64,000 nucleotides of DNA from the NCBI RefSeq assembly GCF_000015645.1, contig NC_008816.1, positions 1,240,001 through 1,304,000 of the forward strand, given 5' to 3'. The first letter of the stretch is position 1. Each line of letters starts with the position of its first letter. Source of the stretch: Prochlorococcus marinus str. AS9601 (GTDB taxonomy: Bacteria; Cyanobacteriota; Cyanobacteriia; PCC-6307; Cyanobiaceae). Made by a program: the position numbers and the translations under genes. The notes beneath the pieces are model-generated. The model searched no databases and was not told where the DNA came from. It saw only the letters and a program-made list of their open reading frames with translations. Shown in pieces: positions 35,706 to 40,648 of this stretch.

Positions 35706-36179
35706 ATGTTAAGTAAATTCATCAATTCTTTTCTAGATAAAAAATCCCCAATGACAGTCCATGCTCACTGCGATGGTCCTTGTGGAGTTTACGATCCAGC
35801 ATCTACGAGAGTTGCAGCTGAAGCAGTTTTATCAATGACAAAAAAACTTATTGCATTAGAAGCTCCTTCTAGCACTGATTCAGCAGAGTGGGCTGCATAC
35901 AGTAATACATTTTCTAGATATGTTGCAGTTAAAGAAGAGCAAGCAAAAGAAACAAAGAAAGATATTTTAATTTTGTGGACAGATTACTTTAAACCAGTTC
36001 ACTTAGAAACTTATCCAGACTTACATGAAACCATTTGGAAGGCGGCCAAATTATGCAGTGCATGCAAAGTTAATATTGACTTAGCCCAAGCTGAAGAACT
36101 AATGAGTTATGTAGAAAAAATTCATAATATCTTCTGGGCTTCAAAAGGAAGATCAGACGCTTTTGTAAAAGCTAGTTAA
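35706..36179 (+). CDS. sodN: Nickel superoxide dismutase precursor
   Basis: NiSOD destroys superoxide with a nickel centre held by the mature N-terminus. The nickel hook HCDGPCGVYDP starts at His21, giving mature ligands His1, Cys2 and Cys6 after removal of a 20-residue propeptide ending in TVHA. The helical rest of the protein is complete at 157 residues in all. Use of nickel instead of iron suits low-iron ocean life. The processing protease gene follows, and a nickel transporter-like gene is convergent. Confidence 0.97.
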   Translation: MLSKFINSFLDKKSPMTVHAHCDGPCGVYDPASTRVAAEAVLSMTKKLIALEAPSSTDSAEWAAYSNTFSRYVAVKEEQAKETKKDILILWTDYFKPVHLETYPDLHETIWKAAKLCSACKVNIDLAQAEELMSYVEKIHNIFWASKGRSDAFVKAS

Positions 36180-36580
36180 TCAGAATTATTTTCAAAAGTT
36201 TTTTTGATTTTATTTTATTTTTTTTAGGTTTAAGAAGAACCGCGATTATTAGTGGTGAATCTATGTTTCCTTGCCTAAAAGAAGGCGACATTGTATTTTT
36301 TAAAAAATATAAAAAGAATAAATCAATACTTAAAAATCGACAAATAGTTATTTTTAATCATCCAATTAAAAATAAAAAACTAATAAAAAGGATAAATTCA
36401 GTAAATAAAAATAACGTTGAGGTTATTGGCGACAATATTGAATTTAGCGAAGATAGTAATAAATTTGGATTAATCAATAACGAAAAAATAATTGGGATTG
36501 TTACCTCTAAAATGATTATTCCTAAATTAAAAAATTTTTTAATTCAAAAAAACAGAAGCGCTTCTTTGAATCCAAAATAA
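36176..36580 (+). CDS. sodX: Nickel SOD maturation protease SodX, non-standard start
   Basis: SodX is an S26-family signal-peptidase relative that removes the NiSOD propeptide. The first in-frame ATG (36263) comes directly after codons reading SGES, so it would cut off the motif with the catalytic serine (GES-MFPCLKEGD). The frame stays open upstream to the sodN TAG-frame stop, giving a membrane-anchor-like LFFLGLRRTAII before the motif, but holds no ATG, GTG or TTG. Likely starts are an ATT at 36185 or 36188, or a TTG at 36204 reached only if the T8 run at 36218-36225 had one more T. The coordinates given are the full open frame. The Lys dyad region KKLIKRINSV is present. Confidence 0.75.
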   Translation, partial: LIRIIFKSFFDFILFFLGLRRTAIISGESMFPCLKEGDIVFFKKYKKNKSILKNRQIVIFNHPIKNKKLIKRINSVNKNNVEVIGDNIEFSEDSNKFGLINNEKIIGIVTSKMIIPKLKNFLIQKNRSASLNPK

Positions 36581-37210
36581 TCCCAAAGAAAAGGAAAGAC
36601 CTCCTGCTACAGTTATTAATCTTTTAATAAATTTTTGACTTGCTTTAAAGGTAGTAAAAGATATTAAAAAAGTAAAAAGATTCATACTTATGATTGAACC
36701 AATCAAATATGAAATCAAATAAAAGCAAGCGCTTATTAAAGGTAGTGCTAAAGCAGGAAGAACTGCAAGAAAATGTGAACCTCCAGCTATACCGTGTAGC
36801 AAGCCTAAACCAGTCAAAGCATGTGAGTGCTTATTATTATTTTTTTGTTCCTTAACATGAAAGTGAAAGTGACGATGGGCAATTCCATTCTCATGCTTAT
36901 GGGAATGCGAGTGGATACTTAATTGAAAAGAATTTTTTATAGCAAATACTCCAACAATTAAAAGTGAAATTCCAACTAAGAATTCGGCAATACTAGAAAA
37001 TTTGTTTAATGGCGTAATATCCTTAATAAAAATCGCTAGAAAAGCTAACAAAAGGACTCCTGAAGAATGTCCCAAACCCCATGAGAAACTATTTTTAAGA
37101 GCTTTTTGGGGATTATTAATCGCTGCTGGTGCCATTGCAATTAGATGGTCAGCGCCGCTAACTACATGCACAAATCCTGAGACTATACCTGTTAAAATTA
37201 CAGCCTGCAT
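36539..37210 (-). CDS. NicO/HupE-like nickel or cobalt permease
   Basis: The 223-residue membrane protein has six hydrophobic spans. Its first carries HVVSGADH at residues 15-22, close to the HX4DH metal motif of nickel/cobalt permeases. A histidine-rich loop (about 98-132, with HSHSHKH and HRHFHFH) is a typical metal-binding loop. A second histidine-containing span has LLHGIAGGSHFL. It overlaps the end of sodX by 42 nt in the opposite direction. With NiSOD beside it, nickel is the most likely cargo; this is context inference. UreH/HupE-like is the nearest family by recall. Confidence 0.82.
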   Translation of the reverse strand: MQAVILTGIVSGFVHVVSGADHLIAMAPAAINNPQKALKNSFSWGLGHSSGVLLLAFLAIFIKDITPLNKFSSIAEFLVGISLLIVGVFAIKNSFQLSIHSHSHKHENGIAHRHFHFHVKEQKNNNKHSHALTGLGLLHGIAGGSHFLAVLPALALPLISACFYLISYLIGSIISMNLFTFLISFTTFKASQKFIKRLITVAGGLSFSLGLFWIQRSASVFLN

Positions 37211-39616: not shown

Positions 39617-40438
39617 TTATTTAGAGGTATATGCGACTCTTTTTCGTTCAAGTAATAACGGAACTGCAACACAAGCCACATTCAATGATTCTACAATCTC
39701 GCTATGCGGAATTGTAATTGTTTCATTAAAAGCTTCTTGAATTTTTTTATGAATACCTTTACCTTCATTACCCAAAATTAATGCTGTACGTCTAGACCAA
39801 TCAACTTCCCAGTAAGGTTTTGAAGGTTTTTTTGTACTCTCATTATGGCTACTAGTAGAGAAAATCTTAAATCCTACATTTGATAATTCAGACAAAGAAT
39901 TAAGTAAAGAATTTAATATTTCTTCTTCAATGCCATCAAATCTTAAAAATGGCAGATGAAAAACTGCACCTGAGGATGCTCTTAATACCTTTTGGCCTAA
40001 TGGGTGCGCACCTCCAGCTAAAAAAATTGCATTAACACCCGCAGCTAAAGCGGTTCTAAATAGATTACCCATATTCCCAGGATCTTGAATTCTGTCGAGA
40101 ACAAGAACAAAATCATCTTTTCTATTAAATTGATAATTAGGTATTGCTGAAATCTCTACTAAAGCTGCTATCCCATCTGGATTAATTGTTGAAATCGCTG
40201 ACGCCAAGACTTCCTCTGAGACAATATTTATTAATGACTCATCAAATTTTTTGCTTAGATTTTGATTCTTTCTTAGCCATTTTTCAGTAACTAAAATCTT
40301 AGAAGGATTTTTTCCAGACTTCAGCAATTCTTCAATGAGATGTGTACCCTCTATGCAAAAAAAGTCTTGATCTTTTGGAGATGATCCTCTTTTAAATGAT
40401 CTAAATCTTTTAACTAGATTATTGTTTTTACTAGTTAT
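39617..40438 (-). CDS. SpoU/TrmH-family RNA 2'-O-methyltransferase
   Basis: The C-terminal domain has the SpoU knot motifs DRIQDPGNMGNLFRTALAAG, LILGNEGKGI and IPHSEIVESLNVA. The first standard start in frame is a TTG at 40327, inside the N-terminal substrate-binding domain. The frame is open upstream to a TAA at 40493-40495 and reads ITSKNNNLVKRFRS, then FCIEGTHLIEELL, both conserved in this family. Homologues commonly begin MITSK, so I place the start at the ATA codon at 40438, where that Met would be. Target RNA is unknown. Confidence 0.75.
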   Translation of the reverse strand: MTSKNNNLVKRFRSFKRGSSPKDQDFFCIEGTHLIEELLKSGKNPSKILVTEKWLRKNQNLSKKFDESLINIVSEEVLASAISTINPDGIAALVEISAIPNYQFNRKDDFVLVLDRIQDPGNMGNLFRTALAAGVNAIFLAGGAHPLGQKVLRASSGAVFHLPFLRFDGIEEEILNSLLNSLSELSNVGFKIFSTSSHNESTKKPSKPYWEVDWSRRTALILGNEGKGIHKKIQEAFNETITIPHSEIVESLNVACVAVPLLLERKRVAYTSK

Positions 40439-40648
40439 TTTTAAAAAAGTATTTTCTATGAGTATTTTGAAAAATTTGTTATCAACTATATTTTAATTAC
40501 ATAAATATTTTGAACAATTATTTATTAAATTTTTATTTCCCAAAAAATCAAAAAATACATTTTCACTTTTAATTAATATTCATGACGTTACATAGGGTGG
40601 ACTTAATAATATTAGTTTGTCATGATGAATCTAATAAATTAAGTCTTA

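Follow-up and report, generated by a model that had tools for sequence, protein, structure and literature searches.

A probable AUU start codon for sodX, the nickel superoxide dismutase maturation protease gene of Prochlorococcus, from comparison across the genus

Where does translation of sodX begin? In the window, a stretch of 64,000 nucleotides of the Prochlorococcus marinus str. AS9601 genome (NC_008816.1, positions 1,240,001 to 1,304,000), the gene for nickel superoxide dismutase (Ni-SOD), sodN, is adjoined by an open frame for a predicted protease, as expected of the SodX family. SodX is said, in work by Eitinger from 2004, to be required for active Ni-SOD. The relatives found with solved structures are signal peptidases (4wvh, 4wvg and 4nv4). 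The serine of its GxSM motif is taken here to be the nucleophile, as in S26 peptidases, and the lysine of its LIKRI motif presumably acts as the general base, as in signal peptidase I. The original prediction stated that, after the stop of sodN, the sodX frame reaches the codon of the catalytic serine without an ATG, GTG or TTG, that its first ATG directly follows the codons for S-G-E-S, and that a run of eight T residues and an out-of-frame TTG lie upstream; inspection of the sequence confirms each of these points (Table 1). The GESM motif is retained only with a translation start upstream of position 36260. Initiation at the ATG would, by homology, remove the nucleophile, as had also been predicted, and the TIGR02754 score falls from 72.1 bits with the upstream codons to 64.0 bits (cut-off, 63.25), the match then beginning at profile position 8. 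Among the matches listed, residue 1 of the open frame coincides with the start of the match in 23 of 35. Three ways out of this dilemma had been offered, namely an ATT or ATC start, slippage on the T run and a sequencing error.

Table 1. Coordinates and evidence for the features of the sodN–sodX locus and of two other genes with a proposed non-standard start. Positions refer to the window unless a locus is named.
Feature	Position	Strand	Evidence and remarks
sodN, nickel superoxide dismutase	35706-36179	+	TIGR02753, 242 bits; PF09055; C-terminal end ...KAS-TAA
sodN stop codon TAA	36177-36179	+	
sodX open frame	36176-36580	+	TIGR02754, 72.1 bits for the whole frame (cut-off 63.25); PF10502 (Peptidase_S26)
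sodX, re-delimited	36188-36580	+	130 aa; Ni-SOD maturation protease; N-terminal segment hydrophobic
ATT, proposed sodX start	36188-36190	+	codon -22 from the G of GxS; comparison across the genus
TTG, candidate start of the original prediction	36204-36206	+	not in the sodX frame; unsupported
T8 run	36218-36225	+	part of the hydrophobic-segment coding; length not conserved
Ser25 codon, proposed nucleophile	36260-36262	+	G-E-S-M motif; role by S26 homology
ATG, first standard start in the sodX frame	36263-36265	+	read as an internal Met
Lys67 codon, likely general base	36386-36388	+	L-I-K-R-I motif; from sequence
SpoU/TrmH-family methyltransferase	39617-40492	minus	proposed start ATA 40459-40457 (codon 12)
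pgeF	L355 9809-10621	minus	proposed start ATT 10591-10589 behind AGGAG; TIGR00726, 159 bits

A convergent gene for a His-rich membrane protein (36539-37210, minus strand) shares 42 bases with the 3' end of sodX. A Pfam search with this protein gave nothing above the cut-off. A nickel transporter gene, sodT, has been named next to sodX (PMC10119275), and the His-rich protein is perhaps its product.

A run of 29 codons without ATG, GTG or TTG has a chance of about 0.28 at the base composition of AS9601, and so the start-less stretch of a single genome proves nothing; what exceeds chance is its conservation. A total of 289 sodX loci were gathered from the genus of AS9601 and from other genera of the same family, the named ones being mostly Prochlorococcus (MIT 9302 and MIT 9201 among them) and two being Synechococcaceae. 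The genus set holds 160 loci, including AS9601's own genome and repeated genomes, of which 159 are usable (L081 is without sodN) and 106 are distinct in DNA; the genus of L031-L110 is assumed from similarity and titles, and the sequences share ancestry, so that the counts are not independent events. Codons are numbered here from the glycine of the GxS motif as the reference position. The comparison of sodX N-termini and of the gap across Prochlorococcus, which had been proposed as a check, finds no standard start upstream of this glycine in 99 of the 106 distinct sequences. Two of the remaining seven (L155 and L157) were counted through a reference glycine set four codons too far downstream, at N-N-S and not at G-x-S. 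A standard codon lies upstream of codon -10 in three sequences (L058, L124 and L141), and it is TTG in all three.

The point at which coding constraint sets in was located by counting parsimony changes on a tree of 123 sequences, all distinct when sodN and sodX are taken together, and scaling the counts by the spectrum of changes at sodN fourfold sites; the tree excludes L141, L155-L157 and L081, which have indels, a wrongly placed reference codon or no sodN. The ratio of nonsynonymous to synonymous changes in the sodX frame is 0.69 at codons -24 to -23, 0.12 at codon -22, 0.44 at -21 to -17, 0.34 at -16 to -10, 0.14 at -9 to -1 and 0.21 downstream. The frame of the TTG gives 1.68 at -21 to -17 and 1.99 at -16 to -10, with ten stops gained over codons -21 to -10, where the sodX frame gains none; the third frame gives 0.65 and 1.69 over the same two intervals, and the two non-sodX frames together span ratios of 0.65 to 2.66. 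These ratios indicate that translation in the sodX frame begins well before the T run and that the TTG frame goes untranslated. The value of 0.69 at codons -24 to -23 comes from 28 changes with three stops gained and marks no sharp boundary alone, and synonymous changes, too, are fewer near the start of sodX. Parsimony scores two stop gains in the sodX frame at -9 to -1, which are probably steps inside codons that changed twice because no sequence used has a stop there. The Ser25 codon has undergone 24 synonymous and no nonsynonymous changes by the same count.

An upstream limit is set by L025, L145 and L149, which carry an in-frame TAA or TGA at codon -24 and have frames that are intact from codon -22 (122, 114 and 130 residues). 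Initiation thus lies at codon -23 or later, and constraint is clear from codon -21. The comparison therefore shows that the start of sodX translation in this genus, as far as it can be read from sequence, has to lie close to codon -23 or -22. Codon -22 is ATT in 116, ATC in five and ACC in two of the 123 sequences, and both sequences with ACC (L146 and L151) have ATT at codon -23. Among the 106 distinct sequences, codon -22 is ATT or ATC in 101, and ATH occupies codon -22 or -23 in 103. Two of the three exceptions are L155 and L157, in which the reference is misplaced and ATT codons follow the sodN stop. The third is L141, in which a 5-base deletion puts the ATT out of frame and the TTG equivalent to window position 36204 in frame, the resulting frame being intact; L141 is thus, on its sequence, the one member of the genus that favors this TTG. 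Isoleucine is plausible as an internal residue, and so ATT alone is weak evidence for a start; codon -22 has changed from ATT to ATC three times and to ATA not once, too few events to tell selection on a start codon. The constraint on the frame does begin at this place with no standard in-frame start upstream, which, together with the position of ATH, supports the first of the three options. We therefore consider it very likely that sodX is an intact gene that is started at AUU, or at AUC in some relatives, 8 nt downstream of the sodN stop. The re-delimited translation reads fMet-FKSFFDFILFFLGLRRTAIISGES-MFP...

Several other readings of the locus have to be weighed against an AUU start. The nearest to it, to which a small but real probability is given, places initiation at another non-standard codon close to position 36188 (the ATT at 36185-36187, or TTC or AAA just downstream) or at several of them. 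AS9601 has ATT at codon -23 as well, and L146 and L151 have their ATT there with ACC at -22; codon -23 is, however, GTT in 59 of the 106 sequences, whereas ATT or ATC is kept at -22. It is improbable that slippage of the transcript or a -1 shift of the ribosome at the T run joins the TTG to the sodX frame, an event that might regulate SodX. A TTG is present at the equivalent place in 90 of the 106 sequences, in 73 of them together with at least eight T residues, and the deletion in L141 brings this very TTG into frame. The TTG is missing, however, in 16 sequences, the divergent L146 and L152-L154 among them, and the longest T run within 21 bases has eight T residues in 77 sequences, nine in six and only three to seven in 23. 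The combination of TTG and T run, as seen in this set, is common but not kept across the genus. Neither mark of a slippage gene is found: the length of the homopolymer is not conserved, and the upstream frame is unconstrained up to the run and gains stops. Slippage, one of the three options that had been offered, is thus unsupported.

A SodN–SodX fusion, made by a frameshift or by reading through the sodN stop, is more improbable still. It would fit the other genera of the family, in which 77 of 125 distinct sequences (L161, L170 and L179, for example) share one phase, here called phase 1, and the sodX frame is open all the way between the end of sodN and codon -15 (no stop in 966 codons, vs 53 and 53 in the other two frames). 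The fixed relation between the sodN and sodX frames that marks a programmed fusion is not seen within the genus of AS9601, where all three phases occur (85, 13 and 8 of 106); L025, L145 and L149 have their sodX-frame stop between sodN and the ATT, and AS9601 itself has a TAG in the sodX frame one base before the sodN stop. In the other genera a start inside sodN would explain the shared phase of many sequences: a GTG, ATG or TTG stands at codon -29, -26 or -23 with an open frame in 48 of 80 phase-1 sequences, the count being 80 rather than 77 because duplicates were removed over a longer stretch. The sodN stop and the glycine are 68-77 bases apart in 104 of the 106 genus sequences, the other two being the misplaced L155 and L157, and 75 bases apart in 12 loci (seven distinct) through a single base inserted just past the sodN stop. 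These distances and the three phases together indicate that the gap is not translated from sodN in this genus. Least probable of all is that the missing start reflects a sequencing or assembly error, or that sodX is a decaying pseudogene made from the ATG at 36263. The protein from this ATG would still clear the TIGR02754 cut-off; the same arrangement recurs, however, in about a hundred distinct sequences, which disposes of the proposed sequencing error, and strong purifying selection extends through the serine codon.

How far does this start extend beyond the genus? Of the 125 distinct sequences of the other genera, 94 have a gap with no standard start 15 or more codons before the glycine, and 40 of these 94 are also without a standard start inside sodN in an open frame. 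The stop-free gap of the 77 phase-1 sequences suggests that translation of sodX seems to enter there from within sodN. The sodN-internal codons at -29, -26 and -23 come after an AAAGG-like stretch of the codons for SKGR, and a start at one of them, behind this stretch, may be suggested for the other genera. A +1 frameshift at the sodN stop was considered for these genera and set aside, as the internal standard codon makes an internal start simpler. The sodX of genus g79, at one stage a candidate for a start-less gene, was likewise dropped when a standard codon was found inside sodN. Twenty-four of the 80 phase-1 sequences lack a standard start both at -29, -26 and -23 and in the part of the gap that lies 17 or more codons upstream; ATH is found there in 17 and CTG in two. 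The last five (L161, L162, L171, L176 and L246) have none of ATG, GTG, TTG, CTG and ATH at these places, and L162 has a TTG at codon -14 inside sodN.

The start codon appears to be exchanged in place. At one and the same position, L177, L241 and L244 have ATG ATG where L187 has CCC ATT, and L217 has GTG where L180 has CTG. Among 25 loci of genus g28, 15 have an ATC or ATT immediately 5' of a GCA-GCA-GCA-GGT-like stretch. The sodN stop of some Synechococcus-like genera makes CTGA with a CTG in the sodX frame, resembling the ATGA overlap with a weak start (L180, L191, L192, L201-L205, L207, L208, L210, L218-L225 and L227-L231).

To see whether sodX stands alone, the window and 200 kb more of the genome (264 kb) were scanned for presumptive genes. 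The first standard start lies at codon 17 or later in 30 of 272. Pfam was run on five new ones of these 30, picked by eye, and on six open reading frames of the window, which include two of the 30; the rest of the 30 were judged by eye or already known (sodN and sodX). Three of the 272 (sodX, a methyltransferase gene and pgeF) are probable cases of a non-standard start, a rough figure since the 272 are open reading frames picked by length and not curated genes.

The SpoU/TrmH-family methyltransferase gene has no standard start before a TTG at codon 56, which already lies within the substrate-binding domain. All 47 genus loci (43 distinct) have ATA as codon 12, a count that leaves out the short loci L312 and L320 and eleven loci of other genera or families, and the codons upstream vary and contain stops. 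The isoleucine codon 19 is variable in the same loci (ATA in 43, ATT in three and ATC in one). A standard codon is found in the open frame near the start in four of the 47, upstream in L306 and L318 (TTG) and L317 (ATG), and downstream of the ATA in L325 (TTG). In pgeF, the TIGR00726 match begins at residue 35 and the first standard start comes only at codon 76. Of the 28 genomes searched for pgeF, two gave no match, and the count leaves out three from other genera. In 24 genus sequences, codon -17 is ATT in 17 and ATA in one, and a sister clade has ATG in three and TTG in one; the other two are L375, with TTT at -17 and ATG at -20, and L384, with GTG at -18. Of the 18 sequences that carry ATT or ATA, 17 have a GGAG or AGGA no more than 20 bases upstream, and in 15 the stretch between the last in-frame stop and codon +30 is free of standard codons. 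A TTG lies upstream in L376, L377 and L378. Very probably, then, judging by conservation, an rRNA-methyltransferase-like gene of the AS9601 genome starts at AUA and its pgeF at AUU, suggesting that such starts are tolerated more generally in the lineage and are not peculiar to sodX. AUU and AUA starts look like a recurring class in this lineage.

How could so weak a codon serve sodX? A Shine–Dalgarno sequence was looked for by eye upstream of the ATT, and none was seen. The close spacing behind the sodN stop and the lack of a visible Shine–Dalgarno sequence suggest that the ribosomes come from sodN, and those terminating on sodN, presumably an abundant message, would start sodX by translational coupling. 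IF3 discriminates against AUU (PMC5472188), and an increase in IF3 lowers re-initiation in E. coli, as measured at an AUG (PMC2268962). A weak AUU may thus hold the protease to catalytic amounts in relation to its substrate, and scarce SodX would suit a protease that acts on an abundant precursor. A lead that IF3 of AS9601 might itself be made from an AUU was dropped, since infC there begins with ATG and, on visual inspection, encodes an unremarkable protein.

Gene finders usually accept ATG, GTG and TTG only, so that SodX would be annotated without its catalytic N-terminus, and the annotation of Prochlorococcus probably truncates or overlooks some proteins. In one survey, sodX is reported missing from ten cyanobacteria that carry sodN, including four picocyanobacteria without another SOD (PMC8346466), and a missed non-standard start offers a testable reason for some of these reports. 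Taken as a whole, the observations allow a wider reading that we regard as evenly balanced between right and wrong. According to this reading, AUU, AUC and AUA form a standing class of start codons in Prochlorococcus, conserved by clade and used by perhaps one gene in 100; the start of sodX has been swapped repeatedly across the family (AUG, GUG, UUG, CUG, AUU, AUC and perhaps codons inside sodN) as if it were a tunable dial for the dose of the protease; and annotations miss or truncate such genes, from which some reports of absent sodX may stem. If AUU and AUA starts do recur in Prochlorococcus, the question arises of how its initiation machinery tolerates them, and the family would provide a comparative test bed for start-codon strength in the setting of protein ratios.

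AUU starts are of a kind already known; what would be new is that their use in sodX is conserved, that the start has been exchanged repeatedly across the family and that two more genes of a single small genome show such starts. The literature searched, which was mostly other than subscription literature, gave nothing on a non-standard sodX start in Prochlorococcus. The E. coli infC gene, which encodes IF3, resembles sodX in being a bacterial gene that starts at ATT, and its initiation is repressed by IF3 (PMC5472188). It differs in that infC is autoregulated by IF3, no such loop being apparent for sodX, and in that sodX lies closely behind the stop of another gene. In this last respect sodX resembles translationally coupled pairs, in which the downstream start is close to the upstream stop, as for galT and galK at +3 nt, a distance of +73 nt being termed weak (PMC12548453); the main text of that review, by a text search, contains neither "non-AUG" nor "AUU". 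Streptomyces and Prochlorococcus MIT9313 share the sodN–sodX gene pair with AS9601, but in Streptomyces a conserved intergenic region lies between the genes (PMC3919588). The Streptomyces sigR gene differs from sodX in its GTC codon, its extensive ribosome-binding site and its product, a sigma factor, and its case is experimental whereas that of sodX is comparative. The two are alike in a non-canonical start, an operon pair and oxidative-stress physiology, and the GTC start of sigR sets the ratio of the two operon partners, holding one below the other (PMC5472188).
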